Assembly: GCA_903863015.1 (NCBI GenBank)
Contig: CAIPAI010000041.1
Location: 1 to 45,975 of the forward strand
Length of the DNA: 45,975 nucleotides
Reading direction: 5' to 3'
Origin: an uncultured Actinomycetes bacterium
GTDB taxonomy: Bacteria; Actinomycetota; Actinomycetes; Nanopelagicales; Nanopelagicaceae
The notes below the pieces were generated by a model. The model worked only from the letters and a program-made list of their open reading frames with translations. It searched no databases and was not told the origin of the DNA. A program made the position numbers and the translations under genes. This document shows, in pieces, positions 21,384 to 41,755 of the stretch. Each line of letters begins with the position of its first letter. Position 1 is the stretch's first letter.

Positions 21384-21420
21384 CCGAAAGTCCATCACAT
21401 CTAAATGAATGGAGATCCCT

Positions 21421-22533: not shown

Positions 22534-22549
22534 TTCAGCAATACCCCTT

Positions 22550-22593
22550 CTAAGGACGAACCTGGATCAGGCATGATTCAGGTTCGTCCTTAG
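22550..22593 (+). terminator. Strong hairpin between binding-protein and ATPase genes (attenuator or partial terminator)
   Basis: CTAAGGACGAACCTG (22550-22564) pairs perfectly with CAGGTTCGTCCTTAG (22579-22593). The stem continues inward through a G-T pair and ATCA/TGAT to loop GGCA. Only a short ATTTT tract follows. Such a stem after a receptor gene typically protects the upstream mRNA or stops part of transcription, so that receptor exceeds membrane subunits. Confidence 0.75.
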
Positions 22594-22642
22594 ATTTTGA
22601 ACCACCTAGAAATATCGCTCGTAAACAATTGAGGGAGAGCTT

Positions 22643-24115
22643 GTGATTGCAGCCCGCCACATCAGTAAGTCCTTTCCGGGCGTGCTTGCAAATCAGGACG
22701 TCTCTTTCGATGTAGCACCAGGCGAAGTGCATTCGTTGCTCGGAGAAAACGGCGCAGGCAAATCAACTCTTGCAGCGATTCTCACTGGCCTCTATCAACC
22801 TGATGCTGGACACGTCGAAATTGATGGAGTGCGCGTCTCCTTGAAAAGCCCTCGACACGGTTTGGCTCTTGGTATCGGAATGGTGCATCAACACTTCCGC
22901 TTAGTTTCACAATTTACAGTTGCCGAAAACATCTCCCTCGGAGATCGAAAGCAGAATTGGATTCTCTCCACCAAGAAAGTAGAAGAGGCGGTTCGCGAAA
23001 TTGGCGAACGCTACGGACTTCCCGTCGACCCGCGAGCACGCATCAATGAACTGACCGTTGGAGAGCAACAACGAGTCGAAATTATTAAGACGCTTTATCG
23101 CGGCGCACAAGTACTGCTTCTCGATGAACCTACGAGTGTGCTCACACCGCAAGAAGTCACCACGCTCTTTGACTCGGTGCGCACGCTTGCAAGCGAAGGT
23201 AAGAGCGTTATTTTTATTTCGCACAAACTCGGAGAGGTTATGGACATCTCCGATCGCGTCACAGTGATGCGCGATGGGAAAGTAGTTGGAAATACATCAG
23301 TGACTGACACCTCTCGTGAAGCACTCGCTCGCATGATGGTGGGTCGCGATGTTGATCTCTCCGCAATCCGTGCAACGAAACCCACTGGTACTCCGCTTCT
23401 TGAAGTACGCGGCCTCACTGCCAAGAGCGCTCGAAGCCAAGTATCCGATGCATCCATTGTTGTGAAGGCTGGAGAGATCGTCGGGATAGCGGGTGTTTCG
23501 GGTAACGGGCAACGTGCGCTCGCAGAAGGAATTGCAGGTCTTACGCCACCCGTGGGCGGGCACATCACAATCTGCGGCATCGATGTAACGGGCAAGGGTT
23601 CAGTTGCCGCGCGCAAAGCCGGCCTCTCCTATGTCCCGGAAGATAGAAACGGAACAGGTTTAGCGCCATCACTTTCGATCTCAGAGAACATGTTGCTTAC
23701 CGAAGATCTGCCATTTCTTGTGAACCATAAGAGTGCAGTCGCTAAAGCCGAAGAAGCTATCGGCGCATACAGCATTAAAACTCCAGGAGCATCAACTCCA
23801 ACCCGAATGCTCTCCGGTGGAAATGTACAAAAGGTTTTGTTAGCTCGCGAACTCGGACATGATCCACAAGTACTGATCGTCGCTTCGCCCACCTGGGGAT
23901 TAGATGTGGGGGCTGTGGAGTTCGTACGAAGTAAACTTAACGAACTTCGAAATCAAGGACGCGCGATTCTTCTCATCAGTGAAGATCTCGACGAAGTGCG
24001 CGCACTATCGGATCGTATTTATGTCATCTTCGAAGGAAAAATTGTGATGGAGTGCGCTGGCGAAGGCGCCGATGTCACCACACTCGGTCTAGCTATGGCG
24101 GGGGCGAGCGCATGA
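22643..24115 (+). CDS. BMP-type ABC transporter, ATP-binding protein (importer 2)
   Basis: This 490-residue protein with two fused nucleotide-binding domains powers importer 2. The first domain has Walker A GENGAGKST at residues 34-42, LTVGEQQRVEI as signature and VLLLDEPTSVL as Walker B. The second has a degenerate Walker A (GVSGNGQR) and signature LSGGNVQKVLLAREL. The start is GTG at 22643, with GAGGGAG upstream. The stop overlaps the next ATG as ATGA, so permease translation is coupled to it. Confidence 0.92.
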   Translation: MIAARHISKSFPGVLANQDVSFDVAPGEVHSLLGENGAGKSTLAAILTGLYQPDAGHVEIDGVRVSLKSPRHGLALGIGMVHQHFRLVSQFTVAENISLGDRKQNWILSTKKVEEAVREIGERYGLPVDPRARINELTVGEQQRVEIIKTLYRGAQVLLLDEPTSVLTPQEVTTLFDSVRTLASEGKSVIFISHKLGEVMDISDRVTVMRDGKVVGNTSVTDTSREALARMMVGRDVDLSAIRATKPTGTPLLEVRGLTAKSARSQVSDASIVVKAGEIVGIAGVSGNGQRALAEGIAGLTPPVGGHITICGIDVTGKGSVAARKAGLSYVPEDRNGTGLAPSLSISENMLLTEDLPFLVNHKSAVAKAEEAIGAYSIKTPGASTPTRMLSGGNVQKVLLARELGHDPQVLIVASPTWGLDVGAVEFVRSKLNELRNQGRAILLISEDLDEVRALSDRIYVIFEGKIVMECAGEGADVTTLGLAMAGASA

Positions 24116-25203
24116 AGTTTTCGTTAGAACGACGTCGCGAAGTCAAACCTTGGCACCTCATTGGAGTGCCTCTGCTCTCGGTTATTTTTGGCACTCTTGT
24201 AGGCGGACTCTTTTTAGAGGCCACGGGGCATAATGCCATTCTGGTTTTTAAAACAATGTCTCAAACTTCCTACACAACTCTGTATGGCATTGGTGACACG
24301 CTCACCGCTGCCACGCCGCTCATCTTCACTGCACTCGCTGCACTTGTCGCTTTTCGTGTAAACCTTTATTCGATTGGCGCAGAGGGCCAGCTCTTCGTAG
24401 GCGGTATCTTTGCTTCCGGTGTGGGTATTGCAGTTGGTACCTCTTCCTCGGCACTAGCGATTCCCGCAGTACTCATTGCTGGCGTCCTCGGTGGCATTGT
24501 GTGGATGACATTGCCAGCACTCTTTCGCGCTTGGTTTGGCACTAGTGAAATCATCACCACCTTGATGTTTAACTTTGTCGCACTCTTCCTAATGCGCTAC
24601 TTGATCTACGGTGCTTCGACTTATTGGCGCGATCCCACTTCAACAAACTTTCCGCAAGGAAAGAAACTTGATCAGAACGCTTGGCTTCCACGCTTTGGAA
24701 CCCAAAGCGTGCATTGGGGACTTGTGTTGGCTTTAGTAACCACGGTTGGTATTTGGTTCTTGCTCCGAAAGACGCGCTTTGGGTATCAGATGAAGGTGCT
24801 CGGTGACGCTCCTAATGCCGCGCGCTACTCAGGCGTTCCTGTAAAGCGCATGACTTTCACCGTACTCATCATCTCCGGTGGTTTGGCTGGCTTAGCTGGC
24901 GCAAGCGAAGTGGCCGGCCGAGCGCACGCCCTTGATCCCAATGGTCTAGCCATTGGCCTGGGTTATGCCGGCATCATCGTGGCCACCCTTGCGCGACTCA
25001 ATCCATTTGGTGCCGTCATCATCGCCATCGGGTTTGGTGGTCTCCAGAACAGCGCATCCGCACTCCAGAGTCTGGGTACAGATTCAGTTCCTTCAGCAAT
25101 CGCCACCACTTTGCAAGGTCTGATTCTTTTGCTCGCGCTCGCTGGTGAACTCTTTGTCCGATATCGATTGAAAATCTCTAAGAAAGTAGAGGTATCGGCA
25201 TGA
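24112..25203 (+). CDS. BMP-type ABC transporter, permease 1 (importer 2)
   Basis: This 363-residue membrane protein has an N-terminal anchor after a basic start (MKFSLERRREVKPW) and a series of hydrophobic helices. The YufP-like motifs are AFRVNLYSIGAEGQLFVGGI, FGTSEIITTLMFNFVALF and the ATPase-contact loop KVLGDAPNAARYSGVPV. The ATG at 24112 lies within the ATPase stop codon region; an upstream in-frame extension would overlap the ATPase gene by 64 bases and is less likely. Confidence 0.92.
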   Translation: MKFSLERRREVKPWHLIGVPLLSVIFGTLVGGLFLEATGHNAILVFKTMSQTSYTTLYGIGDTLTAATPLIFTALAALVAFRVNLYSIGAEGQLFVGGIFASGVGIAVGTSSSALAIPAVLIAGVLGGIVWMTLPALFRAWFGTSEIITTLMFNFVALFLMRYLIYGASTYWRDPTSTNFPQGKKLDQNAWLPRFGTQSVHWGLVLALVTTVGIWFLLRKTRFGYQMKVLGDAPNAARYSGVPVKRMTFTVLIISGGLAGLAGASEVAGRAHALDPNGLAIGLGYAGIIVATLARLNPFGAVIIAIGFGGLQNSASALQSLGTDSVPSAIATTLQGLILLLALAGELFVRYRLKISKKVEVSA

Positions 25204-26141
25204 CGCAAGAATCGGTATTAGTTCTCACTCTTGCGGCCGCAATCGGAACCGGTACCCCACTCATCTTTGCCGCGATTGGCGGAGTTATCAGTGAGCGAGC
25301 GGGCGTCATCAACTTGGGCATGGAAGGCATGATGCTCATCGGCGCGGTCACCACATTTCTCGTTGATAACAAAACCGGCTCGCCTGTTGCGGGATTTATC
25401 GCAGGCGGAGTGGCCGGCGCACTTCTTGCGCTCATTCACGCCACCTTGGCAATCTCGCTGCGCGCAAATCAAATTGTGTGCGGGTTAGCGCTCACCATCT
25501 TTGGCACTGGTCTCGCATCTTTTATTGGCAAGCCCATCGAAGGCCAAGGTCTCACGAAGTCTTTTGGCTCGTTACACATCCCTGCACTGAGTTCCATTCC
25601 CGGAGTAGGCCCGATTCTCTTTAAACAAGATGTGCTCGTCTACCTCTCTTGGTTTGTTGCTCTCATCGCATCGCTTTACCTCAACCGCACCCGCACCGGA
25701 TTAAGCCTTCGTGCGGTGGGTGAAAATCCGGCAACTGCCGATGCCATGGGGCTCAGCGTTGTTCGCATGCGTTACGCACATGTTGTCGCCGGTGGCTTGC
25801 TTGCTGGTTTCGGTGGCTCGTATGTAATTCTTCGAATCGTTCCGGCTTGGAGTCAAGCTGGAACTACAAATGGAATCGGTTGGATTGCATTAGCACTTGT
25901 GGTCTTTGCATCATGGCGCCCGCTGCGCGTGATTTTGGGTGCGTATCTCTTTGGTGTTGCTCTGCAAGCAAACTTTGCCCTCCAAGCGAAGGGCATCACA
26001 GTGATACCCGCCGAATTTTTGGCAATGCTTCCTTACCTCCTTACAGTGGTGATCCTGGTGGTGCTTACGGCAAATCGCAGAACGCGTGGCGCCGGAGCCC
26101 CAGCAGCCCTAGGACTTCCATTCGTACGGGATGAGCGCTAA
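25200..26141 (+). CDS. BMP-type ABC transporter, permease 2 (importer 2)
   Basis: This 313-residue second permease has FAAIGGVISERAGVINLGMEG near the N-terminus, about eight hydrophobic segments and the contact loop RAVGENPATADAMGLSV. It overlaps permease 1 by four bases (ATGA). Its end overlaps the following regulator gene by 11 bases. It pairs with permease 1 to form the channel. Confidence 0.92.
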   Translation: MTQESVLVLTLAAAIGTGTPLIFAAIGGVISERAGVINLGMEGMMLIGAVTTFLVDNKTGSPVAGFIAGGVAGALLALIHATLAISLRANQIVCGLALTIFGTGLASFIGKPIEGQGLTKSFGSLHIPALSSIPGVGPILFKQDVLVYLSWFVALIASLYLNRTRTGLSLRAVGENPATADAMGLSVVRMRYAHVVAGGLLAGFGGSYVILRIVPAWSQAGTTNGIGWIALALVVFASWRPLRVILGAYLFGVALQANFALQAKGITVIPAEFLAMLPYLLTVVILVVLTANRRTRGAGAPAALGLPFVRDER

Positions 26142-26689: not shown

Positions 26690-27181
26690 GTGCCAACGCT
26701 TGGGGAGATAAACGCGTTGGGCGTCCAGCAGGCGGAAGAACTCTTCGCGCGTTGCTGTGTCGCCCCGACTTTTTGCGCCGCCATGGCAGCCGCCCGGCCT
26801 TTCCAAGACCTTCCTGCTCTTGAAGTTGCCTCAGACCACGCCACGGCAGGTTTAGACCACGCGGCTTTACTTGTGGGGTTTTCTGGACATCCACGAATTG
26901 GCGATCGCAAGCCGCACTCAGCTTGGTCCTCCGCAGAGCAATCAGGGGTTTCGCAGGCAGATATCAAAATCCTTGATGATCTACGTGCAGCGAATTTCGC
27001 ATACGAGGAAAAGTTCAACCATGTCTTTCTTATTTGTGCCACCGGTAAGAGTGCGGAATACATGCTGACTGAATGCTTACGACGTATTAGCAATTCGGCC
27101 GATGTTGAGATTGAAGAGGCGCGCGAACAACTAAGACTCATCAATCGCATCCGCGTCAACAAGCTACTGGAGGAATCATGA
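26690..27181 (+). CDS. uraD: 2-oxo-4-hydroxy-4-carboxy-5-ureidoimidazoline (OHCU) decarboxylase
   Basis: It decarboxylates OHCU to S-allantoin, the third step from urate. The 163-residue protein has the family motif HPRIGDR with catalytic H67, and YEEKFNHVFLICATGKSA, which lines the active site. It starts with GTG at 26690, supported by the well-spaced promoter just upstream. Its stop overlaps the uraH start (ATGA), and urate oxidase follows, so all three enzymes from urate to allantoin are consecutive. Confidence 0.93.
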   Translation: MPTLGEINALGVQQAEELFARCCVAPTFCAAMAAARPFQDLPALEVASDHATAGLDHAALLVGFSGHPRIGDRKPHSAWSSAEQSGVSQADIKILDDLRAANFAYEEKFNHVFLICATGKSAEYMLTECLRRISNSADVEIEEAREQLRLINRIRVNKLLEES

Positions 27182-27504
27182 GCGGGCTATCAACTCACGT
27201 ACTAGATACCACTACTGGTATGCCGGGCGTAGCAATCAAAGTTACTCATTCGATTAACGGCATAGTGCAGGCGAGCGCTACGACAAACTCTGACGGGCGC
27301 GTTACCGATCTACTCGAAGGTAAATCACTTGCAGCCGGAAGTCACACACTTACCTTTGAAGTGGCACCTTATTTTGCAAAGGAAAATCGCGAGACTTTTT
27401 ACGCAAATATCAATATCGATTTTATTGTTACCGATACAACTCGTCACTACCACGTCCCGCTTCTGCTGAGTCCGTTTAGTTTCTCGACCTACCGAGGGAG
27501 TTAA
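27178..27504 (+). CDS. uraH: 5-Hydroxyisourate hydrolase (transthyretin-like)
   Basis: It hydrolyses 5-hydroxyisourate, the direct product of urate oxidase, to OHCU. The 108-residue length is typical. Active-site marks are H7 in STHVLD, R41 in SDGRV and the C-terminal tetrapeptide YRGS (105-108), which distinguishes the enzyme from transthyretin. It overlaps uraD by four bases and ends one base before the urate oxidase start. Confidence 0.95.
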   Translation: MSGLSTHVLDTTTGMPGVAIKVTHSINGIVQASATTNSDGRVTDLLEGKSLAAGSHTLTFEVAPYFAKENRETFYANINIDFIVTDTTRHYHVPLLLSPFSFSTYRGS

Positions 27505-27505
27505 A

Positions 27506-28420
27506 ATGAAGATCGTTCTAGGCGATAACCGTTACGGCAAAGCGGAAAATAGGGTTGTTCGCGTTACTCGCGAGCAAGGGACTCATCACATTCTCGACCT
27601 CAACGTCTCCGTACAACTCAGCGGAGATCTCGAAGACACACACCTCACTGGATCAAACGCGAAAGTACTCCCCACTGATACTCAGAAGAATACGGTTTAC
27701 GCCTTCGCCCAGAAGTTCCCAGCGATGGAACCAGAAACTTTTGGTCTCACCTTGTGTGAGCATTTCTTAGACACCCAATCGCATGTCACTCGTGCCGAGG
27801 TGCGCCTAGAACAATTCCTCTGGGAACGAATTAACGTCAATGGAAAACCACATCCTCGCGCCTTTCAAAAGAATAGTTCAATGAAGCGTATTGCTCGCGT
27901 AGTTGTTGAACGTGGAGCAGGCGGAGAGAAAGTTGCCTACGTCAGTAGCGGTCTCGAGGATCTCGTTGTTCTTAAAACAAGTGATAGCGAGTTCACGGGA
28001 TTTATTCGAGATAAATACACCACGCTTCCGGACGCTACAGATCGCATCATGGCTACACAGGTAAGCGCCAAGTGGCGCCACGATAGCCACGACTTTGCTG
28101 ACATTAAGAAGAAGGATTTCGGCAAGAGTTTCACGCAAGCGAGTGAAACTATGGTGGCTGTCTTTGCTGACCACTACTCACTCTCGCTACAACAGACTCT
28201 CTTCGAGATGGGTAAACAAGCAATTACCCAACAACCAGAGATTTCGGCAGTGCGCCTTAGCCTTCCCAACAAACATCACTTTCTCGTAGACCTCTCACCT
28301 TTCGGTCAAGAGAACGACAACGAGGTCTACTTTGCCGCTGATCGGCCTTATGGCTTGATCGAAGCGGTAGTCACGCGAGACGATGCATCCGATGCCGGTT
28401 TTACCTGGCCGGCTTGGTAG
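27506..28420 (+). CDS. uox: Urate oxidase (uricase)
   Basis: It oxidises urate with O2 to 5-hydroxyisourate and H2O2 without a cofactor. The 304-residue protein has two tandem T-fold halves. K12 (NRYGKAENRVV) and T57 (TDTQKNTVYAF) correspond to the catalytic Lys-Thr pair, and the second half has the DRIMATQV segment. GAGGGAG precedes the ATG. O2 dependence implies an aerobic pathway. Confidence 0.95.
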   Translation: MKIVLGDNRYGKAENRVVRVTREQGTHHILDLNVSVQLSGDLEDTHLTGSNAKVLPTDTQKNTVYAFAQKFPAMEPETFGLTLCEHFLDTQSHVTRAEVRLEQFLWERINVNGKPHPRAFQKNSSMKRIARVVVERGAGGEKVAYVSSGLEDLVVLKTSDSEFTGFIRDKYTTLPDATDRIMATQVSAKWRHDSHDFADIKKKDFGKSFTQASETMVAVFADHYSLSLQQTLFEMGKQAITQQPEISAVRLSLPNKHHFLVDLSPFGQENDNEVYFAADRPYGLIEAVVTRDDASDAGFTWPAW

Positions 28421-28432
28421 GGGAGATAGCTC

Positions 28433-29296
28433 ATGGAGTTCTTTAGACCGGCAACGCTGAATGACGCCCTCACGCTGAAATCGGCGCACCCCACCGCCCT
28501 CTGTATCAATGGTGGTACCGATGTCATGGTGGAGTTGAATTTCGATCGCAAGCGACCAGAAACACTGCTTGATCTCAGCGCCATTTCAGAATTAAGTGAG
28601 TGGAGCGATCAAGGGGATTCCATCCTCCTTGGCGCTGGCGTTTCTTACACGCGCATCTATCACGAGTTAGCCAAAGAGCTTCCCGGCTTAGCAATGGCCT
28701 CGCGAACTGTCGGCTCTCTACAGATCCGGAATAAGGGTGGCGTCGGCGGTAATTTGGGTTCAGCGTCTCCCGCCGGTGATGCACATCCCGCCCTTCTTGC
28801 ATCTGGTGCAACAGTCAATGTTGCAAGCGTCAATGGAACGCGGGCCATCGATATCAATGATTTCTATGTGGGTCCGAAGAAGAATGCGATGAATCCTGAC
28901 GAAATCATTACTAGCGTTCTTATTCCTAAAGCACGTGGTGGACAGCAATATTCAAAAATTGGAACACGCAACGCCATGGTTATTGCAGTCTGTTCTTTTG
29001 GTATTGCTATTGATAGTACGAACAAGAGTGTAGGAACTGGAATCGGATCTGCCGGGCCAACACCTTTGCGTGCTCATGAAGCAGAAAGTTACGCGGCTTC
29101 TCATCTTGATTGGACACACGGCAGTGCCGTTACTCCCGAGATGATGAAGGAGTTCGGCGCGCTAGTGGCCGCTGCCTCTAAACCGATTGACGACGTACGT
29201 GGCACCGCCGCTTACCGTCGTCATACCCTTGCAGTTATTTCTGGTCGTTGTTTGAAATGGGCTTGGACCTCCACACAAGAGATGAGGAGTAAGTAA
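28433..29296 (+). CDS. pucC: Xanthine dehydrogenase, FAD-binding subunit
   Basis: This 287-residue subunit carries FAD and passes electrons from the iron-sulfur clusters to NAD. The two FAD-binding motifs are NGGTDVMVELN near residue 25 and QIRNKGGVGGNLGSASPAGD near residue 100. A CODH-type C-terminal domain follows. AGGGGAG lies upstream of the ATG. The last base of its stop is the first base of the next start region, so it is coupled to the 2Fe-2S subunit. Confidence 0.93.
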   Translation: MEFFRPATLNDALTLKSAHPTALCINGGTDVMVELNFDRKRPETLLDLSAISELSEWSDQGDSILLGAGVSYTRIYHELAKELPGLAMASRTVGSLQIRNKGGVGGNLGSASPAGDAHPALLASGATVNVASVNGTRAIDINDFYVGPKKNAMNPDEIITSVLIPKARGGQQYSKIGTRNAMVIAVCSFGIAIDSTNKSVGTGIGSAGPTPLRAHEAESYAASHLDWTHGSAVTPEMMKEFGALVAAASKPIDDVRGTAAYRRHTLAVISGRCLKWAWTSTQEMRSK

Positions 29297-29775
29297 TGAG
29301 ACTTACTTGCACAGTAAACGGCAAAGTAGAGACCGTTGATGATGTGTGGCCAGGCGAAAGTCTGCTTTACGTACTCCGCGAGCGCATGGGACTTCCTGGT
29401 GCGAAGAATGCGTGCGAACAGGGCGAGTGCGGATCATGCTCGGTTCATCTCGATGGAATTCTGGTCTGCGCCTGCTTAGTCGCTGCCGGCCAAGTAGAGG
29501 GTGCAGAAATCAAAACGGTAGAAGGCCTTGCTGGCGCAAAGGACCTCCATCCAGTGCAACAGGCATATCTCGATGCTGGCGCTGTTCAATGTGGTTTCTG
29601 CACACCTGGTCTCATCGTCGCAACAGTCGATTTACTCGAGAAGAATGCTGATCCGAGCGATAGCGAAATACGCGAGGCCCTTGCTGGCAACCTCTGCCGC
29701 TGCACTGGATACTCCAAGATTCTCGATGCTGTCCGACTTGCCGCCGTGCGCCTTGAAGGGGCCGGCGTTGAGTAA
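29296..29775 (+). CDS. pucE: Xanthine dehydrogenase, 2Fe-2S subunit
   Basis: This 159-residue subunit holds two [2Fe-2S] clusters. The first, plant-ferredoxin-like set is CEQGECGSCSVHLDG, with a further C at VCAC; the second is CGFC and CRC in the segments VQCGFCTPG and NLCRCTGY. It matches the small subunit of xanthine and other molybdenum hydroxylases. It overlaps the next gene's TTG start by eight bases. Confidence 0.94.
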   Translation: MRLTCTVNGKVETVDDVWPGESLLYVLRERMGLPGAKNACEQGECGSCSVHLDGILVCACLVAAGQVEGAEIKTVEGLAGAKDLHPVQQAYLDAGAVQCGFCTPGLIVATVDLLEKNADPSDSEIREALAGNLCRCTGYSKILDAVRLAAVRLEGAGVE

Positions 29776-31135
29776 AACCATCATCACCGGCGCTTACATC
29801 GCTACGGTTGATTTACAAGACCGAGAGATCAACGGCGGTTGGGTAGCCGTTGATGGAAAACGCATCGTCGGCATCGGTACCGGTGAAATTCCAGCCGATT
29901 ACGCAGCCTTCGACCGCATCGATGGTTCCGGCTGCTTGCTTACTCCAGGTTTTGTGAATACCCATCACCATCTCTATCAATGGGCAACGCGAGGTATCGC
30001 AACAGAGTCCACGCTCTTCGAATGGCTCGTTGAGCTCTACCCGATCTGGGGACACCTCGATGCTGAGGTGACTTTTGGTGCCGCACAAGGCGCGCTCGCC
30101 TCTTTGCTGCTTTCCGGATGCACATACACAACAGATCATCACTATGTCTTTCCCGCAGAAGGCGGCGATTACCTCGCTGCAGAGATCAAGGCAGCCGAGG
30201 GTTTAGGGATTCGTTTTCATCCCACACGCGGATCCATGGATCTAGGGCAATCAAAGGGTGGGCTGCCGCCAGATAACGTCGTAGAAGATCGTGATCAAAT
30301 CTTGATTGCCACCGAAGATGCCATCCGACGTTTTCATGACACTGCAGATGACGCCATGGTCAAAATCGCCGTTGCGCCTTGCTCGCCTTTTAGTGTCACC
30401 GGCGAACTCATGAAAGAAGCAGCCGAACTTGCGCGTCGAGAGAATGTTCGCCTACATACGCATCTTGCGGAAACGATCGACGAAGAAGATTTCTGTCAAG
30501 AGAAGTTTGGCTGCTCCCCCACTGACTACGTGGAGTCCCTCGGTTGGCTCGGTTCCGACGTGTGGATGGCACACGCAATTCATCTTGACGACTCAGCGGT
30601 AGCAAAGTTTGGCAAAACTGGAACTGGAGCGGCGCACTGTCCCTCTTCCAATGCACGTCTCGGTTCTGGCATCGCCCGCGTGCAAGATTTAGTACGCGCA
30701 GGCGCCCCGGTAGGGCTGGGTGTCGACGGTGCCGCGAGTAACGAGAACGGCGAACTACTCACCGAAGTACGGGCAGCCGCACTCTGGGCTCGCCTCAAAG
30801 ATGGCCCCACTGCGATGAGCAGTCGTGAATCTCTTGCGTTGGCCACCCGAGGTGGAGCGAAAGTTCTCGGTCGCGATAAAGATCTCGGCTCTATCGAAGT
30901 AGGAAAGCTTGCTGATCTGGTTCTTTGGAAATTAGACGACATCGGGCATATCGACATCGTCGACCCCATCGCTGCCTTGGTCCTTGGACCGAAGGCCGAA
31001 GTCACCGCGTTGTTAGTTAACGGCGAAGTACGAGTACGCCACGGTTTGATCACTGCAAAGTCCCATGAAGATATTGCTGCAGAAGCAGCGCGCGCGAGCA
31101 AGCGTCTCTTGTCGAGTGCAAAGAAGGCAGGCTGA
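29768..31135 (+). CDS. 8-Oxoguanine deaminase-like amidohydrolase (possible guanine deaminase)
   Basis: This 455-residue metal-dependent amidohydrolase of the ATZ/TRZ class deaminates a purine-like ring. Metal and catalytic motifs are NTHHHLYQW, HTHLAETIDEE, HCPSSNARLGSG and LGVDGAASNENGE. The HCPSSNxRLGSG/VDGxASN pair is characteristic of 8-oxoguanine deaminases, whose product is urate itself. Guanine deamination to xanthine is the main alternative and would also fit. I place the start at TTG 29768, because GAAGGGG precedes it; the open frame runs upstream to 29528 but overlaps pucE fully. It sits between two xanthine dehydrogenase subunit genes. Confidence 0.8.
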   Translation: MSKTIITGAYIATVDLQDREINGGWVAVDGKRIVGIGTGEIPADYAAFDRIDGSGCLLTPGFVNTHHHLYQWATRGIATESTLFEWLVELYPIWGHLDAEVTFGAAQGALASLLLSGCTYTTDHHYVFPAEGGDYLAAEIKAAEGLGIRFHPTRGSMDLGQSKGGLPPDNVVEDRDQILIATEDAIRRFHDTADDAMVKIAVAPCSPFSVTGELMKEAAELARRENVRLHTHLAETIDEEDFCQEKFGCSPTDYVESLGWLGSDVWMAHAIHLDDSAVAKFGKTGTGAAHCPSSNARLGSGIARVQDLVRAGAPVGLGVDGAASNENGELLTEVRAAALWARLKDGPTAMSSRESLALATRGGAKVLGRDKDLGSIEVGKLADLVLWKLDDIGHIDIVDPIAALVLGPKAEVTALLVNGEVRVRHGLITAKSHEDIAAEAARASKRLLSSAKKAG

Positions 31136-31136
31136 A

Positions 31137-33476
31137 ATGAGTAACTCAACACTTCCCACCAAACAACGTGACCACGTTGAGGCACCCGTACTGGGTGGAC
31201 TTGGTGAAAGCGTGGCTCGGCCAGACGGCACCCTCAAGGTCACCGGTGACTTCGCATATTCAAGCGACCTCTGGGCAGACGGCATGCTCTGGGCATCAAC
31301 TCTGCGCTCCCCCCATCCTCACGCGCGCATCAAGTCAATCAACATCGCACCAGCGCTCAAGATCAACGGTGTCTCTGCAGTCCTCACACATGATGACGTC
31401 CCGGGCTCCAAGCTCTATGGTCTTGAAATTGTTGACCAACCGGTGCTCGCGTTCGACACCATCAGGTTTCACGGCGAAGCGATTGCAATCGTTGCAGCCG
31501 ACCACCCTGAAACTGCAAAGCGTGCAGCGCAGGCGATTGTGGTGGAGTATGAAATTCTCGAACCTGTTGTCGATGCTGATTACGCAATTAGCGGAAATGC
31601 ACCCGTCATTCATGATGGTGGGAATATCACGCGCCACGTACCCATCATTTTTGGTCCGCAAAATCTCAAGGCTGATGTTGTCGTTAAAGGTGAGTACGAA
31701 GTGGGCATGCAGGATCAAGCCCCACTCGGCCCAGAGTCTGGTTTAGCTATCCCTGCCGATGATGGCGGGATCGACCTTTATCTCTCCACGCAATGGCTCC
31801 ACGTCGATCGTGGTCAACTTGCGACCGTTCTTGGTTTGCCACCCGAGAAGGTGCGTCTGACGCTTGCGGGCGTCGGCGGTGCCTTTGGTGCTCGCGAAGA
31901 TATGTCGATGCAGGCACACATTGCACTTTTGGCAATGCGTACAGGTAAGCCCGTAAAGATTGTTTACTCGCGCGAAGAATCATTCTTCGGCCACGTGCAT
32001 CGCCATCCGGCGAAGCTTCGCTATGAGCATGGTGTTACTAAAGAGGGAAAGCTCGTCTACGTTAAGGCAAACATTGTTCTCGATGGCGGAGCTTATGCAT
32101 CCTCTTCACCCGCTGTCTGTGCAAATGCCGCATGTTTTGCGGTGGGGCCCTATGAAGTAGAGAGCGCCACTATCGACGCCTACGTTGCATATACAAATAA
32201 TCCTCCCTGCGGTGCGATGCGCGGTTTTGGAGCAGTGCAAACCGGTTTCGCATACGAATCCCAAATGGACAAGATTGCAGAAACCCTTGGAATGGATCCG
32301 ATTGAACTGCGTCTTAAGAACGCAATGGTTCGCGATTCGCTCATGCCCACCGGACAGCCTGTTGATTCGGCAGCGCCAGTCGCCGAGATTCTAGAGAAGC
32401 TTCGCGCAATGCCACTTCCTCCACTCACTGCAACTACGGATGGCTTCGACGTGATCGAGCTTCCTGGTGGTGCTAGCAACGTCACACATGGCGAAGGCGT
32501 GCGACGTGGCATCGGATACGCAGTAGGCATCAAGAACATTGGCTTCTCAGAAGGCTTCGATGACTACTCCACCGCAAAGGTGCGCCTGCAAATAATTAAT
32601 GGCGAACCTGTCGTTGAAGTACACACGGCAGCGGCCGAGGTGGGCCAGGGCCTAGTCACACTTAAAGGTCAGATTGCCCGCACAGAACTTGGAGTTCAAC
32701 GAGTTGTTGTACATGTGAGTGATACTCAAGTTGGTAGCGCGGGATCGACGAGCGCATCTCGTCAGTCATACGTCACCGGCGGCGCAGTGATGACCGCATG
32801 CAAAGCAGTCAGAGATGAAGTTCTGCTTTACGCCATGGAGAAGCTTGGCCATCTACATCCACATCTCCTGCACTTCCGAGCCAACTACAAAATGGTTAAC
32901 GGAGAGATCCGCGACGGTGAGGGTCAACTAGTTTCTTCTCTTGCTGACCTTGTGAAGGATCGGGTCTTTGAATGCACACGCGAATATCGCCATCGCCCCA
33001 CCACCCCAATTGATCCCATTACCGGCCAAGGGTTACCTCACGCACAATTTGCCTTTGCAGGTCACCGCGCAGTTGTTGATGTTGATATTGAAACAGGCAT
33101 GGTGAAAGTCATTGAAATGGCATCCGTGCAAGACGTCGGTAAGGCGCTTAATCCGCAAGCAGTCGAGGGACAAATTGAAGGTGGTACCGCGCAAGGTCTT
33201 GGCCTAGCCATTCTTGAAGAGATTCAAGTTGTTAATGGAAAGGTAAAGAACCCTTCATTCACCGATTACTTGATTCCAACCGTGTTGGATATGCCACCTG
33301 TTCGCTCAATCATTCTTGAATATGCAGATGAGCATGCTCCATACGGTTTGCGCGGTGTAGGTGAAGCGCCAACTATTTCCAGTACTCCTGCAGTGGTATC
33401 AGCCATCCGACAGGCTACGGGATTGGCGCTGACACGCGTTCCTGTGCGTCCTGAGCACATCACTTCGACCCTGTAA
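31137..33476 (+). CDS. pucD: Xanthine dehydrogenase, molybdopterin-binding subunit
   Basis: This 779-residue catalytic subunit hydroxylates hypoxanthine and xanthine to urate at a molybdenum centre. The substrate-positioning arginine is in AMRGFGAVQ (near residue 362), and the catalytic base is E743 in GVGEAP, just before the C-terminus. The AGGAFGAREDMSMQ segment binds the cofactor, and AEVGQGLVTL is a typical molybdopterin loop. The ATG at 31137 follows the previous stop by one base; the frame extends upstream to 31065 only as overlap. Insertion and sulfuration factors for the cofactor are not in this window. Confidence 0.94.
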   Translation: MSNSTLPTKQRDHVEAPVLGGLGESVARPDGTLKVTGDFAYSSDLWADGMLWASTLRSPHPHARIKSINIAPALKINGVSAVLTHDDVPGSKLYGLEIVDQPVLAFDTIRFHGEAIAIVAADHPETAKRAAQAIVVEYEILEPVVDADYAISGNAPVIHDGGNITRHVPIIFGPQNLKADVVVKGEYEVGMQDQAPLGPESGLAIPADDGGIDLYLSTQWLHVDRGQLATVLGLPPEKVRLTLAGVGGAFGAREDMSMQAHIALLAMRTGKPVKIVYSREESFFGHVHRHPAKLRYEHGVTKEGKLVYVKANIVLDGGAYASSSPAVCANAACFAVGPYEVESATIDAYVAYTNNPPCGAMRGFGAVQTGFAYESQMDKIAETLGMDPIELRLKNAMVRDSLMPTGQPVDSAAPVAEILEKLRAMPLPPLTATTDGFDVIELPGGASNVTHGEGVRRGIGYAVGIKNIGFSEGFDDYSTAKVRLQIINGEPVVEVHTAAAEVGQGLVTLKGQIARTELGVQRVVVHVSDTQVGSAGSTSASRQSYVTGGAVMTACKAVRDEVLLYAMEKLGHLHPHLLHFRANYKMVNGEIRDGEGQLVSSLADLVKDRVFECTREYRHRPTTPIDPITGQGLPHAQFAFAGHRAVVDVDIETGMVKVIEMASVQDVGKALNPQAVEGQIEGGTAQGLGLAILEEIQVVNGKVKNPSFTDYLIPTVLDMPPVRSIILEYADEHAPYGLRGVGEAPTISSTPAVVSAIRQATGLALTRVPVRPEHITSTL

Positions 33477-33586: not shown

Positions 33587-34981
33587 ATGAGTAATACGAG
33601 CCCAGGGTATGCAATCACCATCCGCTTGGAGGGACCCGCCTCCTCTTCCCCCACCACGAGCATCACCGCTGCAGTCGCTGCCGCCGGTGGTTACATGACC
33701 GCCCTCGATATTGTCGAGTCTACGACGGACCGCGTCGTCGTCGATGTCACCTGCGATGCGCGCGATGCTGCGCATGCGGAATCTATTACCGAAATCATTT
33801 CCGCACTTCCAAACATCAAAGTGCGCAAGGTCAGTGATCGTACTTTCCTTCTTCACCTCGGTGGCAAACTAGAAGTTAATAGCAAGGTTCCATTAAAAAC
33901 TCGTGATGACCTCTCACGCGCGTACACCCCGGGCGTAGCTCGTATCTGCTTAGCAATTGCGGCAGATAAGTCAGACGCACGCCGACTCACTATTAAGCGC
34001 AACACCGTAGCTGTCGTCACCGACGGTTCTGCTGTGCTTGGTCTGGGAAATATCGGACCAGAAGCCGCACTCCCAGTAATGGAAGGAAAGGCCGCTCTCT
34101 TCAAGAGATTTGCCGATGTGGATGCATGGCCCGTATGTCTCGATACACAAGATGTAGATGAGATCGTACGTACAGTGCAACTTCTTGCACCTGTTTATGG
34201 TGGAATCAATCTCGAAGACATCTCCGCACCACGTTGCTTCGAAGTGGAACGACGTCTCAAGGAACTTCTCGATATTCCCGTTTTCCACGATGATCAGCAT
34301 GGAACGGCAATTGTTGTTCTCGCAGCTTTGATCAATGCACTTCGCCTGATAAATAAGGACCTTTCTAAGGTAAAGATCGTGCTCAATGGAGCTGGCGCTG
34401 CGGGCGTAGCAATCATTCGCCTCCTCATGCTCTCTGGTGCAACCAACATCATTGCCTTCGATAGCAAGGGTTGTATCTACGATGGGCGAGAGAACCTCGA
34501 CTCCGCTCGCCAGTGGCTCGCTGAACACACCAATCAAGCCAAATTCTCTGGAGATCTGGCAGGAGCCATGAAAGAGACTGACATCTTCATCGGCGTCAGT
34601 GCACCAAACGTCTTAAGTGAAGAGGCCGTATCCGGAATGGCAAAGGATGGCATCGTCTTCGCGCTTTCCAATCCAGATCCAGAAATCGACCCACTGATCG
34701 CACGCAAACATGCGCGGGTGGTGGCCACCGGTCGAAGTGATTATCCAAACCAGATCAACAACGTGCTTGCCTTCCCCGGAATCTTCCGCGGACTTCTCGA
34801 TGCCGGCGCATCAAAGATCACCGATGAAATGCTGGTAGCGGCAGCACAGGCCATTGCTTCTTGCGTGAAACCAGAGCAATTGAACGAGAGTTTTATCGTT
34901 CCGAGCGTTTTTGATGTCGCCGTAGCACCAGCCGTTGCTAGCGCAGTACGAAAGATTGCCGAGGAAGGGTTAAAGAAATGA
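33587..34981 (+). CDS. NAD-dependent malic enzyme with N-terminal ACT domain
   Basis: It oxidatively decarboxylates malate to pyruvate and CO2. The first 85 residues form an ACT-like domain (YAITIRLEG ... VVVDVTCDA), common in actinobacterial malic enzymes and possibly an allosteric site. The catalytic part has AYTPGVARIC, VVTDGSAVLGLGNIG, HDDQHGTAIV (metal site) and the coenzyme loop LNGAGAAGVAIIRLL. It stands 110 bases after pucD; TTGCGC (33539) and GAGATT (33562), 17 bases apart, could be a promoter, with GAGAG as ribosome site. Malate synthase overlaps its end (ATGA), so the pair turns glyoxylate plus acetyl-CoA into pyruvate. Confidence 0.93.
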   Translation: MSNTSPGYAITIRLEGPASSSPTTSITAAVAAAGGYMTALDIVESTTDRVVVDVTCDARDAAHAESITEIISALPNIKVRKVSDRTFLLHLGGKLEVNSKVPLKTRDDLSRAYTPGVARICLAIAADKSDARRLTIKRNTVAVVTDGSAVLGLGNIGPEAALPVMEGKAALFKRFADVDAWPVCLDTQDVDEIVRTVQLLAPVYGGINLEDISAPRCFEVERRLKELLDIPVFHDDQHGTAIVVLAALINALRLINKDLSKVKIVLNGAGAAGVAIIRLLMLSGATNIIAFDSKGCIYDGRENLDSARQWLAEHTNQAKFSGDLAGAMKETDIFIGVSAPNVLSEEAVSGMAKDGIVFALSNPDPEIDPLIARKHARVVATGRSDYPNQINNVLAFPGIFRGLLDAGASKITDEMLVAAAQAIASCVKPEQLNESFIVPSVFDVAVAPAVASAVRKIAEEGLKK

Positions 34982-36552
34982 CAGTTGCACCTTCGAGCGT
35001 GATGGGGGCCGACCAGGTTCTCACTGCGGATGCTCTGGAATTCGTACTCCATTTGGATCGCCTCTTCCACGACCGTCGAGACGCACTCTTAGGTGCCCGC
35101 CGTGCCCGCCGCAACCAATTAGCGGCCGGGGAGAGTCTGGATTTCCTCCCCGAGACCGCTGGCATCCGGAGCTCAGAGTGGCAGGTCGCCAAGGCCCCAG
35201 CCGACCTTTGCGACCGCCGGGTAGAGATCACCGGCCCTACCGACCCCAAGATGGCAATCAACGCCCTCAATTCCGGTGCCCGAGTCTGGCTGGCTGACCT
35301 CGAAGACTCCAACACCCCCCACTGGAAGAACGTGGTGGAGGGGCAAGTGGTCCTTCAGGGGGTTTCCCGTAAGAACCTTTCCTTCACCTCGCCCGAGGGC
35401 AAACAGTACGCACTCAAGGAGGGAGCGCTCGCCACGTTGGTGGTTCGTCCACGCGGTTGGCACTTCGACGAGAAGCACCTCACCGAAAATGGCCGCCCAG
35501 TTGTTGGCGCGATTTTTGATTTCGGAATGCACTTCTTTCACAATGCAAAAGAACTCATCGCGCGTGGATCTGGGCCTTACTTCTACTTACCGAAAATGGA
35601 GAGCCATCTCGAGGCACGTTTGTGGAATGACATTTTTGTTGAGGCGCAAAAGGTTCTTGGGATTCCACACGGAACAATCCGTGCCACCGTTCTCATCGAA
35701 ACAATTCCTGCTGCTTTCGAAATGGAAGAGATCCTCTACGAATTAAAAGATCATGCAAGCGGTCTTAATGCAGGTCGTTGGGATTACATGTTCTCTATCG
35801 TTAAGAACTTCCGCGATGCTGGCGCAAAGTTTGTGCTCCCAGATCGTGCTTCGCTTACCATGACCGCTCCGATGATGCGGGCATACACCGATCTACTCGT
35901 CTCTACTTGTCACAAGCGCGGTGCATTCGCGATGGGCGGTATGGCGGCGTTTATACCAAGTCGCAAAGATGAAGAGATTAACAAGATCGCGATCGAAAAA
36001 GTCACCGCTGATAAGAATCGTGAAGTTACCGATGGTTTCGACGGCTCTTGGGTTGCCCATCCAGATCTTGTTTCGCTCTGCGCAGATATCTTTACCTCTG
36101 TTCTGGGAGCTCGACCCAATCAATTAGATCGACTTCGCCCAGACGTGCATGTCACTGCAGCGCAACTACTATCCGTAGATCAAACACCAGGCTCGGTAAG
36201 TGAAGCGGGGCTGCAACAGAACATTGATATCGCCTTGCAATACTTGGCCGCTTGGCTCGACGGAAATGGCGCAGCTTCAATTCATAATTTGATGGAAGAT
36301 GCTGCCACTGCTGAGATTTCTCGCTCGCAAATCTGGCAGCAAGTGCGCAACTCAGTGACCTACTCAGATACTGGACGCGTGGCGACTAAGGCATTGGTCC
36401 AAGAAGCTCTAAATACAGAGGTCCTACGTCTTAAAGAGGCGGGATTTGACCCAGAGAAATTGGCGCAGGCAGCGCAACTTTTCGAGCGAGTAAGCCTGGC
36501 CGATGAGTACGTAGATTTCCTCACCCTTCCAGCACTCGAGATGATCGACTAG
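34978..36552 (+). CDS. aceB: Malate synthase (A type)
   Basis: It condenses glyoxylate with acetyl-CoA to malate. The 524-residue length and motifs VWLADLEDSNTPHW, VRPRGWHFDEKHL, GLNAGRWDYMFSIVK and AFAMGGMAAFIPSR identify the A form. No isocitrate lyase is present, so the glyoxylate here most likely comes from purine breakdown rather than the glyoxylate shunt. It is joined by ATGA to the malic enzyme gene upstream and ends directly before the allantoinase ATG. Confidence 0.95.
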   Translation: MTVAPSSVMGADQVLTADALEFVLHLDRLFHDRRDALLGARRARRNQLAAGESLDFLPETAGIRSSEWQVAKAPADLCDRRVEITGPTDPKMAINALNSGARVWLADLEDSNTPHWKNVVEGQVVLQGVSRKNLSFTSPEGKQYALKEGALATLVVRPRGWHFDEKHLTENGRPVVGAIFDFGMHFFHNAKELIARGSGPYFYLPKMESHLEARLWNDIFVEAQKVLGIPHGTIRATVLIETIPAAFEMEEILYELKDHASGLNAGRWDYMFSIVKNFRDAGAKFVLPDRASLTMTAPMMRAYTDLLVSTCHKRGAFAMGGMAAFIPSRKDEEINKIAIEKVTADKNREVTDGFDGSWVAHPDLVSLCADIFTSVLGARPNQLDRLRPDVHVTAAQLLSVDQTPGSVSEAGLQQNIDIALQYLAAWLDGNGAASIHNLMEDAATAEISRSQIWQQVRNSVTYSDTGRVATKALVQEALNTEVLRLKEAGFDPEKLAQAAQLFERVSLADEYVDFLTLPALEMID

Positions 36553-37902
36553 ATGGATTACGAACTCATCGTTCGTTCTCTTCGCGTTGTCACTCCTCAG
36601 GGAGAAGTAGCTGCGTCTGTCGCAGTCAACAGCGGCAAAATCGTTTTGGTAACTGACTTCAACGCACAATTAGATGGTAAGAGCGATATCACTATTGAAG
36701 GTGTGCTCATGCCGGGCCTCGTTGATACTCACGTTCATATTAATGAGCCGGGTCGCACGGAGTGGGAAGGTTTCGAAACTGCAACTAAGGCAGCGGCGGC
36801 AGGTGGTGTTACCACCGTTATAGATATGCCACTCAACAGCATTCCGCCCACCACATCCGTCTTAGCCCTTAATACCAAGAAGGAAGCAGCGCTCGGCAAG
36901 ACTTCAGTTGATGTTGGCTTCTGGGGTGGCTCCATCCCCGGAAATAGCAGAGACCTTATTCCGCTTCTCAATGCCGGGGTATTCGGATTCAAATGCTTCT
37001 TACTTCATTCAGGTGTTGATGAGTTCCCGGCAACAAGTGATTTAGATTTTGCACAAGCATTAGAGATCTTGGCAAAAGTTGATGGCCTTATGGTGATTCA
37101 TGCTGAAGATGCACACGTCATTGATGAATCGGCGCGCGCGGGTTCTCGCGATTACCAAGAATTTCTTGCATCACGACCAAAGGGAGCAGAAAATACAGCG
37201 ATCGCTCAGGTTATTCGGGAAGCGCGACGCACTGGAGCGCGAGTACATGTTCTCCATCTCTCTAGCGGGGATGCTTTAGAAATAATTAAAGAAGCAAAGG
37301 CAGACGGTGTGCGCATCTCAGTAGAGACGTGCCCCCATTACCTCTCGCTCACCGCCGAAGAAGTCGCAGATGGCGCTACGCAATTCAAGTGCTGCCCACC
37401 CATTCGCGAGCGCGCCAATCAAGATGAGCTCTGGGAGGGCCTACTCTCCGGGGTGATCGATCAAGTGGTCTCAGACCACTCACCGTGCACCCCAGATCTC
37501 AAGCGTTTCGACGAGGGAGACTTTCAAAGCGCCTGGGGTGGCATCTCATCCCTCCAATTGGGTCTGCCGATCCTCTGGAGTGCGGGGTCAGCCCGCGGCG
37601 CCACCCTCACACAAATCGCGAACTGGATGTCAGCGGCGCCCGCCCGCCTCGCCGGACTCCACCAGAAGGGGGCGATCGAGGTGGGTAAAGATGCTGACCT
37701 GCTGGAGTTCCAGCCAGCCAAGGAGTTCACCGTCACCCCCGCCGAACTCTTCCATCGCAACTCGGTTTCGCCTTACGCCGGAAAAGTTCTTCAAGGTGTG
37801 GTGCAACAAACCTGGCTTCGTGGGACTCTGATCTATCAAAATGGTGCTCTGACCGGGGCACCCCGCGGGCAATTCCTCTACCGAGAAGGAAATACTCAAT
37901 GA
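36553..37902 (+). CDS. allB: Allantoinase
   Basis: It hydrolyses allantoin to allantoate. The 449-residue cyclic amidohydrolase has the metal motif DTHVHINEPGRTEWEGFET, a lysine in FGFKCFLLHSG that is probably carboxylated to bridge two metals, H in ETCPHYLSL, and D in VSDHSPCTPD. Dihydropyrimidinase and dihydroorotase relatives differ at these sites, and the neighbouring allantoicase supports the call. The ATG directly follows the malate synthase stop. Confidence 0.94.
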   Translation: MDYELIVRSLRVVTPQGEVAASVAVNSGKIVLVTDFNAQLDGKSDITIEGVLMPGLVDTHVHINEPGRTEWEGFETATKAAAAGGVTTVIDMPLNSIPPTTSVLALNTKKEAALGKTSVDVGFWGGSIPGNSRDLIPLLNAGVFGFKCFLLHSGVDEFPATSDLDFAQALEILAKVDGLMVIHAEDAHVIDESARAGSRDYQEFLASRPKGAENTAIAQVIREARRTGARVHVLHLSSGDALEIIKEAKADGVRISVETCPHYLSLTAEEVADGATQFKCCPPIRERANQDELWEGLLSGVIDQVVSDHSPCTPDLKRFDEGDFQSAWGGISSLQLGLPILWSAGSARGATLTQIANWMSAAPARLAGLHQKGAIEVGKDADLLEFQPAKEFTVTPAELFHRNSVSPYAGKVLQGVVQQTWLRGTLIYQNGALTGAPRGQFLYREGNTQ

Positions 37903-38963
37903 GCGATTTTCGTAATCTCACTGATTTAGCAGCCCGCCGTTTCGGCTCTGGCGTCATCGCAGCTAACGATGAGTTCTTCGCGGAGAAAGAGAGCCTGCTC
38001 AATGAAGGGCGCGCAGATTTTCACGGACATACTTTCGGACACAAAGGGCAAGTTTACGACGGTTGGGAGACTCGGCGCCGCCGCGAGCCAGGGCATGATT
38101 GGGTAATTGTGCGTCTTGGCGCCGCCGGCATCGTGCGCGGAGTTGTCATTGATACCGGAAATTTCACTGGTAATTATCCAGAACAAGCATCTGTTGAAGG
38201 CGTTGCACTTGAAGGAAATCCATCTCCTGCAGAAGTTGAAGCCGCCGAATGGACCACACTCCTAGCACCTTCTGATCTCAAGGGTGATCACGAAAATCTT
38301 TTTGAAATCAAGAATGAATTACGGTGGACACACATTCGTCTCTCTATTTACCCCGATGGTGGAGTCGCACGCTTCCGAGTTCATGGTGAGGTCGTTCCCG
38401 ATCCGCGTTGGATCATTGCGCGCCACACGATCGATCTCACTGGTTTAGAAAATGGTGGAGAACTGATTGGTTGCAGCGACGACTTCTACTCTTCTTCACG
38501 CAACACCTTACTTCCAGGCTTGGCGCGTAGCCAGGGAGACGGTTGGGAGAACCGTCGCCGTCGACATGGTGGTAACGATTGGTTTGCCGTCGCGCTCGCA
38601 GTTGAAGGGATTGTCACTGCTGTTGAAGTAGATACCACTCACTTCAAAGGAAATGCTCCCGGCGAAATTATGGTGACTGCTGGAGATGCCTCACATTTGA
38701 AGAAGTCTCCTGGGAGTGAAGAGCTCGTCGGAAAGCAACGCGTGCAACCTGATACGCCACACCGCTACCTCGTGAAGAGCGACGTACCCGTTAATGCCGT
38801 AAGACTCGATGTCTTTCCAGATGGTGGTCTCGGCCGGTTTAGAGTGTGGGGCGTTCCCACGCAAGCTGGCCTTTCTGCGGCGGCTCGGCGCTGGTGGAAT
38901 TCACTGCCAGAGAGTCACCGCAGCGCAATCACTCTCTCGAGTGAGATCAAAGATCTGCTGTGA
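37899..38963 (+). CDS. alc: Allantoicase
   Basis: It hydrolyses allantoate to ureidoglycolate and urea. The 354-residue protein is an internal duplication of a jelly-roll domain. GWETRRRREPGHDW and GWENRRRRHGGNDW are the same motif in the two halves, followed by VIDTGNFTGNYP and VDTTHFKGNAPG. RFRVHGE and RFRVWGVP end each half. It overlaps allantoinase by four bases and the next gene by four, so the three are translationally coupled. Confidence 0.95.
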   Translation: MSDFRNLTDLAARRFGSGVIAANDEFFAEKESLLNEGRADFHGHTFGHKGQVYDGWETRRRREPGHDWVIVRLGAAGIVRGVVIDTGNFTGNYPEQASVEGVALEGNPSPAEVEAAEWTTLLAPSDLKGDHENLFEIKNELRWTHIRLSIYPDGGVARFRVHGEVVPDPRWIIARHTIDLTGLENGGELIGCSDDFYSSSRNTLLPGLARSQGDGWENRRRRHGGNDWFAVALAVEGIVTAVEVDTTHFKGNAPGEIMVTAGDASHLKKSPGSEELVGKQRVQPDTPHRYLVKSDVPVNAVRLDVFPDGGLGRFRVWGVPTQAGLSAAARRWWNSLPESHRSAITLSSEIKDLL

Positions 38964-40207
38964 GTTCACTCAGCAAAGATTTCTTCAAACAGGCGAGCAA
39001 ATACCTGACTGAAGTAGATACGACGCTCGCCGAGCGCTACCCAGGAGACTTTGGTGGCCGCCAGCCAATTCACACCTGTTATGTCCCAGCCGATAAGTTC
39101 TTCACCCGAACCATCCATGAATGGGGCGAGCAGGCTCGGAGCGCACTGAGTACTCACGCAAGGAGCGCCGCAGAATTTGCCGAAGTCATTGGAGTCGATG
39201 AGACGGTCGTTGCTGATTGGTGGCCTCGTTTGCAAGAAAAATTGGCAAGCGAACCCATTGAAGATCTGCGTATCGATTTTGAAGATGGATATGGTCGGCG
39301 AAGTGACAGCGAAGAAGACGATCATGTAACGAGCGCACTTGCCTCGATGCAATCTCTCACTACCGCATTCACTGGTATCCGCATGAAGAGTCTTGAAGCG
39401 GTCACTCGTGATCGTGCCCTTCGCACACTCGATCAGTTCATTACAGGATTGGCGAAGCAAGGTGGAGTGCCCCAGAATTTCGTGGTTACTCTTCCGAAAG
39501 TTACCTTTGTTGAACAAGTAGAAGTAATGGTTGAGGCTTGTCAGGAACTAGAACATTCGTTAAAACTCAAAGCTGGCACTATTAGATTCGAAATTCAGAT
39601 CGAAACTACACAGGCGATTGTCAGTCCTAAGGGAAAAGTAACCGCCGCCCTCATGATTGACGCAGCACAAGGTCGCCTCACAGCATTTCACTACGGGACC
39701 TACGATTATTCAGCCGCGGCTGGCATCTCGGCTGCCTACCAAACGCTAGACCACCCCGCGGCAGATTTTGCGAAATCACTTCTACAAGTAGTTGCGGCCG
39801 GAACTGGCGTACGTCTTTCGGATGGATCCACGAACATCATTCCTATTGGTGAGCGCGACTCAGTGCACGCGGCGTGGGCCAATCATTACCGTCTCGTAAG
39901 ACGATCACTAGAACGCGGTTTCTACCAAGGATGGGATTTACACGGCGCTCAGATTCCGACTCGAATTGCCGCGAACTTCACTTTCTACCGAGAGGGTTTG
40001 GCTGCGGCTTCCCAACGTCTACGTACCTATCTTGATAAAGCCGAATCTGGCACCATGGACGAGCCAGCCACCGCATTGGCCCTCGCAGGATACTTTCTCC
40101 GCGGGCTCGATTCCGGGGCGATTACTTCCGCAGAAATGTCTGCGCTCACGGGGCAGAGCGAAGAAGCTTTGCGCGCCCTAGTAAAGCGCCGCGGACAACT
40201 CAACTGA
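38960..40207 (+). CDS. CitE/HpcH-like aldolase/lyase of unknown function (DUF6986-like); candidate ureidoglycolate lyase
   Basis: This 415-residue protein has the motifs of HpcH/CitE TIM-barrel lyases. They are D106-F-E-D109 (family DLEDaV), R141 in GIRMKS (substrate Arg), LPK at 178-180, and the Mg ligands E215 in IETTQAI and D249 in GTYDYSAAAGI. Family members cleave or form C-C bonds and several release glyoxylate. The gene is coupled to allantoicase by a four-base overlap. No known ureidoglycolate lyase or amidohydrolase is present, so conversion of ureidoglycolate to glyoxylate and urea is an attractive but untested role. A glyoxylate-using aldolase is the alternative. The start may be GTG at 38960. 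Confidence 0.75.
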   Translation: MSSLSKDFFKQASKYLTEVDTTLAERYPGDFGGRQPIHTCYVPADKFFTRTIHEWGEQARSALSTHARSAAEFAEVIGVDETVVADWWPRLQEKLASEPIEDLRIDFEDGYGRRSDSEEDDHVTSALASMQSLTTAFTGIRMKSLEAVTRDRALRTLDQFITGLAKQGGVPQNFVVTLPKVTFVEQVEVMVEACQELEHSLKLKAGTIRFEIQIETTQAIVSPKGKVTAALMIDAAQGRLTAFHYGTYDYSAAAGISAAYQTLDHPAADFAKSLLQVVAAGTGVRLSDGSTNIIPIGERDSVHAAWANHYRLVRRSLERGFYQGWDLHGAQIPTRIAANFTFYREGLAAASQRLRTYLDKAESGTMDEPATALALAGYFLRGLDSGAITSAEMSALTGQSEEALRALVKRRGQLN

Positions 40208-41748: not shown

Positions 41749-41749
41749 T
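41744..41749 (+). promoter_or_regulatory. Candidate -10 box of the flavoprotein gene (leaderless)
   Basis: TACATT lies six bases before the ATG at 41756 and overlaps the start codon of the divergent kinase gene. The -35 region has no good match, so support comes from the -10 sequence and spacing. Confidence 0.35.
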
Positions 41750-41755
41750 TTCCTT

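Follow-up and report, generated by a model that had tools for sequence, protein, structure and literature searches.

A DUF6986 protein encoded next to allantoicase is a predicted actinobacterial ureidoglycolate lyase

The window analyzed here is a stretch of 45,975 nucleotides (contig CAIPAI010000041.1, assembly GCA_903863015.1) from an uncultured member of the Nanopelagicaceae (Actinomycetes). It contains a purine-breakdown locus, with the genes described below from 19763 to 40207 on the forward (+) strand, whose last gene (38960..40207) encodes a DUF6986 protein that we propose to be a Mg-dependent ureidoglycolate lyase. This gene closes a run of five that abut or overlap one another. The others encode malic enzyme (33587..34981; PF03949/PF00390), malate synthase A (aceB, 34978..36552; TIGR01344, 745 bits, cut-off 594), which is a sink for glyoxylate, allantoinase (allB, 36553..37902; TIGR03178, 593 bits, cut-off 358), and allantoicase (alc, 37899..38963; TIGR02961, 373 bits, cut-off 278), which yields ureidoglycolate and urea. 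The open reading frame of the DUF6986 gene extends from a GTG start to a stop and encodes 415 amino acids, and the opposite strand has many stops in the one frame checked. As a first-pass annotation of this DNA had pointed out, its start overlaps the allantoicase stop; both are contained in the GTGA at 38960..38963, and this 4-bp overlap suggests translational coupling of the two genes. A scan for promoters and terminators gave no more signals than were found in shuffled sequence.

Upstream of the run are genes for the earlier steps of the pathway. These encode OHCU (2-oxo-4-hydroxy-4-carboxy-5-ureidoimidazoline) decarboxylase (uraD, 26690..27181; PF09349), a transthyretin-like 5-hydroxyisourate (HIU) hydrolase (27178..27504), uricase (uox, 27506..28420; TIGR03383, 350 bits), and the flavin adenine dinucleotide (28433..29296; PF00941, PF03450), [2Fe-2S] (29296..29775; PF01799, PF00111), and PucD-type molybdenum (31065..33476; TIGR03196, 830 bits) subunits of xanthine dehydrogenase. 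The HIU hydrolase is a 108-amino-acid frame between uraD and uox that ends in YRGS, and homologues occupy the same place in related clusters. A guanine-deaminase-like amidohydrolase gene (29528..31135; PF01979) overlaps the gene before it, and its TTG start at 29528 is probably placed too far upstream. Further upstream are a BMP-type ABC transporter consisting of a binding protein, an ATPase, and two permeases (21409..26141; PF02608, PF00005, PF02653), which is probably involved in purine or nucleoside uptake, and a PucR-type regulator of purine catabolism (19763..21274; PF07905, PF13556). The operon is followed, at 40813-44206, by two genes resembling those for choline kinase and for dimethylglycine/sarcosine dehydrogenase, which may form a distinct module for one-carbon or methylamine metabolism.

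The first-pass annotation had claimed that this locus covers the steps from xanthine to ureidoglycolate, followed by malate synthase and malic enzyme, and that it shows no AllA-type lyase, AllE, or ureidoglycolate amidohydrolase. The pathway genes are present as described, and the second claim holds when the search is extended to the whole source genome (1.94 Mb in 65 contigs, 99.5% complete). There, no match was found to AllA (PF04115), ureidoglycine aminohydrolase (TIGR03214), the M20 hydantoinase/carbamoylase family (TIGR01879), which covers enzymes such as AllC and plant ureidoglycolate amidohydrolase (UAH), or AllD (TIGR03175). Thus, besides the DUF6986 protein, no known ureidoglycolate enzyme is visible, and the pathway has a hole: all steps up to ureidoglycolate are encoded, while AllA, M20 enzymes of the UAH/AllC type, and AllD are absent. 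A 202-amino-acid gene at 40221 was considered as a possible AllA and rejected, since its product is a DedA/VTT membrane protein.

The product of the last gene is a full-length member of the DUF6986 family (PF22484; 543 bits, E 5e-163, cut-off 27) over 395 of its residues (16-410), with a weak Pfam match to HpcH_HpaI. PF22484 has no assigned function, and its members are labeled "aldolase/citrate lyase family protein" in public records. In the literature covered, which was mostly outside subscription journals, we found neither a paper nor a curated record giving DUF6986 a function, nor anything relevant on ureidoglycolate together with CitE or HpcH; papers on the nitrogen response of Mycobacterium smegmatis name no gene of the citrate-lyase/aldolase type. 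Matches to PF22484 above 300 bits were called full-length DUF6986, and those below 60 bits were counted as ordinary CitE-like relatives outside the family. The source genome (G000) has one full-length copy. It also encodes an ordinary CitE-like protein of 302 amino acids with a DLEDAV motif (contig 32, L150:607-1512).

An AlphaFold2 model of the protein, built from 43 relatives, has a mean predicted local distance difference test score (pLDDT) of 86.4 and a predicted template modeling score (pTM) of 0.86, and consists of a TIM barrel with a C-terminal lid. Its top structural match is malate synthase A (3cv2; Z 24.3, root-mean-square deviation 3.1 over 287), followed by the malyl-CoA (coenzyme A) lyases of Chloroflexus, Roseiflexus, Rhodobacter, and Methylobacterium (Z 23-24) and then human CLYBL. 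A phmmer search of the PDB with the single sequence gave no match; the DUF6986 profile matched malyl-CoA lyases there (E 5e-5 and 5e-4). In the profile alignment, the Mg ligands of the Rhodobacter malyl-CoA lyase, Glu141 and Asp168, fall opposite E215 and D249; the numbering was reconciled by our own count, the deposited chain being offset by 21 residues. The other catalytic positions named for malyl-CoA lyase are Asp42, Glu44, Asp45, Arg76, and Asp299 (PMC3832036). By motif, rather than by superposed coordinates, these correspond to D106, E108, D109, R141, and, with an uncertainty of one residue, D367. All seven residues are invariant in sets of 19 and 43 relatives, consistent with the earlier claim that the catalytic and Mg-binding motifs of the HpcH/CitE superfamily are intact. 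H244, N292, and W325 are further invariant residues, specific to DUF6986.

To which pathway the family belongs is indicated by two partly overlapping genome surveys, one of 296 genomes across the phylum and a denser one of 237 genomes within the class. In the phylum sample, DUF6986 and allantoicase are each present in 25 genomes and occur together in 22. The three DUF6986 genomes that lack alc are exactly the three carriers of a cupin (TIGR03214) among the 28 examined, such that all 25 DUF6986 genomes have one gene or the other. The cupin is not homologous to allantoicase; the one copy scanned, which adjoins DUF6986, scores 452 bits (cut-off 350) against NF040771, "bifunctional allantoicase/(S)-ureidoglycine aminohydrolase". 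The cupin, too, yields ureidoglycolate. The class sample gives the same picture with larger numbers (DUF6986 in 83 genomes, alc in 71, the cupin in 15). A maker of ureidoglycolate is present in 82 of the 83 DUF6986 genomes, alc in 67 and the cupin in 15; the remaining one (G425) is an assembly of 850 contigs that is 93% complete. No genome has both alc and the cupin, every one of the 15 cupin genomes has DUF6986, and 150 genomes have none of the three genes. The association of DUF6986 with alc or the cupin has a Fisher p of 1e-57 in this sample, with kinship of the genomes ignored; counted by genus, alc or the cupin is found in each of the 35 genera that carry DUF6986. Within one genus (g14), one genome (G291) has the cupin and another (G412) has alc, and both have DUF6986. 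This exchange of the ureidoglycolate maker while DUF6986 stays constant is the strongest single argument for the function proposed here.

The first-pass annotation had predicted that the gene co-occurs with alc and is anticorrelated with allA. The former is correct for 67 of the 83 DUF6986 genomes in the class sample and fails for 16; since 15 of these 16 carry the cupin, the association is with ureidoglycolate production and not with alc as such. The latter is borne out, in that AllA and full-length DUF6986 never occur in one genome in either sample. However, AllA is rare in this phylum, with 7 of 296 genomes in the phylum sample (none with DUF6986 or alc) and 1 of 237 in the class sample (without DUF6986). 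No AllD scored over the cut-off in 80 genomes, and the M20 family is absent in 11 of 25 DUF6986 genomes, including the source genome. Escherichia coli, used as a control, has no DUF6986. Among the 19 other sampled members of the window's family, 17 have neither DUF6986 nor alc and 2 have both, so the distribution of the purine operon across these small genomes is uneven.

Gene neighborhoods link the family to the same pathway. DUF6986 is located within 20 kb of 32 of 67 alc genes, and within 5 kb and on the same strand for 14 of 15 cupin genes, five of these within about 200 bp. The order alc-uraD-uox-DUF6986 recurs in several distant families, and aceB-allB-alc-DUF6986 is kept in two small-genome members of the window's family at 62-73% identity. 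Other arrangements include xdh-DUF6986-alc-puuE in Nocardia farcinica, guaD-DUF6986-cupin in Tsukamurella, where DUF6986 and the cupin overlap by 4 bp, and aceB-DUF6986 in Amycolatopsis. In Gordonia polyisoprenivorans p174 (L148) and in G412 (L159), urease genes directly follow DUF6986, apart from the remaining purine cluster, which is compatible with urea being a product. On the Paenarthrobacter conjugative plasmid pCZY (L147), DUF6986 is located between a PuuE-like polysaccharide-deacetylase gene and an NCS1 permease gene, with no alc within 9 kb.

Ureidoglycolate, HO-CH(COO-)-NH-CO-NH2, differs from malyl-CoA, HO-CH(COO-)-CH2-CO-SCoA, in having NH for CH2 and NH2 for SCoA. Given this similarity in shape, a retro-aldol-like cleavage of the same type would yield glyoxylate and urea. 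In the mechanism proposed for malyl-CoA lyase, the arginine takes the proton of the Mg-bound hydroxyl, the bond breaks, glyoxylate stays on the Mg, and the lid aspartate protonates the enolate (PMC3832036). In the reaction that we infer for DUF6986, including its substrate, metal, and direction, E215 and D249 would be the ligands of Mg2+, E108 and D109 would keep water molecules in place, and the alpha-hydroxy-carboxylate of ureidoglycolate would chelate the metal. The hydroxyl proton would pass to R141, oriented by D106, and the C-N bond would then break as the C-C bond does in malyl-CoA lyase, with glyoxylate remaining bound to the metal. The leaving urea, which takes the place of the acetyl-CoA enolate, may be protonated by D367 in the C-terminal lid, and glyoxylate would proceed to the malate synthase and malic enzyme of the same gene run. 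Co-occurrence, linkage, and the active site support the first-pass reading of the gene as a ureidoglycolate lyase. The DUF6986 protein is very probably the actinobacterial enzyme for this reaction (Enzyme Commission (EC) number 4.3.2.3) that is unrelated to AllA. It is likely, at a slightly lower confidence, that it is the standard actinobacterial lyase and represents a second enzyme type for EC 4.3.2.3 with no relation to the first, in which the malate synthase/CitE fold has switched from breaking C-C bonds to breaking C-N bonds and no longer requires CoA.

Several observations weigh against this assignment. To our knowledge, no member of the superfamily cleaves a C-N bond, and the position of D367 is uncertain by one residue, the profile alignment being off by one there. 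Because the surveyed genomes share ancestry, the p-values treat them as more independent than they are. In Streptomyces, DUF6986 is far from alc and from recognized purine genes; the survey genomes that appear to be Streptomyces (g3) do have alc. Finally, 4 of the 71 alc genomes in the class sample and a further one (G089) in the phylum sample have neither DUF6986 nor AllA, indicating that alc can do without DUF6986. Of the four, one is G313, whose purine cluster is cut off by the end of a contig at the very point where uricase and DUF6986 are found in relatives. The other three (G041, G077, and G432; L050, L052, and L153) belong to one genus and have alc beside a PuuE-type polysaccharide-deacetylase-like protein. 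G041 also has a second, divergent allantoicase beside allB, a 2-oxoglutarate-Fe(II) oxygenase, and a metallo-beta-lactamase-fold protein (L051:7401-12927).

The best alternative is that DUF6986 acts one step later, as an aldolase of the malate synthase/malyl-CoA lyase type that uses or releases glyoxylate and thereby disposes of it, with ureidoglycolate decaying spontaneously or through another protein. The protein has the fold and active site of Mg- and glyoxylate-binding enzymes; in Amycolatopsis, among others, its gene is a neighbor of aceB or malic enzyme, and in the window it shares a run with both. However, a malate synthase A is already encoded in that run and beside DUF6986 in Amycolatopsis, and many DUF6986 clusters have no aceB or malic enzyme nearby. 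Glyoxylate is made in many metabolisms, yet DUF6986 is missing from 150 of the 151 class-sample genomes that have neither alc nor the cupin, and E. coli, which makes glyoxylate through AllA, does not have it. We therefore consider such an aldolase unlikely. That allantoicase carries out the second cleavage itself, ureidoglycolate having been reported as its substrate, with DUF6986 as an accessory, would explain the few alc genomes without DUF6986 and AllA. This is quite improbable, because DUF6986 is kept in all 15 genomes that have the cupin instead of alc, and its role is therefore independent of alc. Least probable of all is a ureidoglycolate amidohydrolase releasing two ammonia, CO2, and glyoxylate, which would have the same pathway position and glyoxylate product, since the known UAH is an M20 amidohydrolase, the malate synthase/malyl-CoA lyase fold and residues suit a retro-aldol-like cleavage, and urease genes are located beside DUF6986 in Gordonia.

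As a ureidoglycolate lyase, DUF6986 would share its reaction and pathway position with AllA/DAL3 (PF04115), to which it has no sequence relation and no match. AllA is reported to be nickel-dependent, and with it ammonia appears only once urease is added (PMC3793230), whereas DUF6986 is predicted to use Mg or Mn. From the malyl-CoA lyases of Rhodobacter, Chloroflexus, and Methylobacterium, with which it has in common the fold (Z about 23-24), the Mg ligands, the arginine, the lid aspartate (with the uncertainty given above), and the predicted product glyoxylate, it differs in sequence (15-18% identity), and in the proposed cleavage, without CoA, of a C-N rather than a C-C bond. Its score against the haloarchaeal malyl-CoA lyase model of NCBIfam (NF041626) is 24.7 bits, far below the cut-off of 500. 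Malate synthase A is its best structural match and has a glyoxylate site, but is encoded separately in the same run, and DUF6986 has no match to malate synthase A models. The FAH-family "ureidoglycolate lyase" (UGL) of Burkholderia shares only its name with the activity proposed here; it shares no homology with AllA, and doubt has been cast on whether it takes part in ureidoglycolate metabolism (PMC3793230).

If this assignment is correct, it would close the last gap in the use of purine and allantoin nitrogen for many Actinobacteria, including Streptomyces, Amycolatopsis, Gordonia, Nocardia, and small-genome lineages such as the one described here. It would also provide a function for a large Pfam family that is currently labeled as unknown, and would illustrate how a scaffold of acyl-CoA lyases can come to act on a substrate with NH in the position of CH2.
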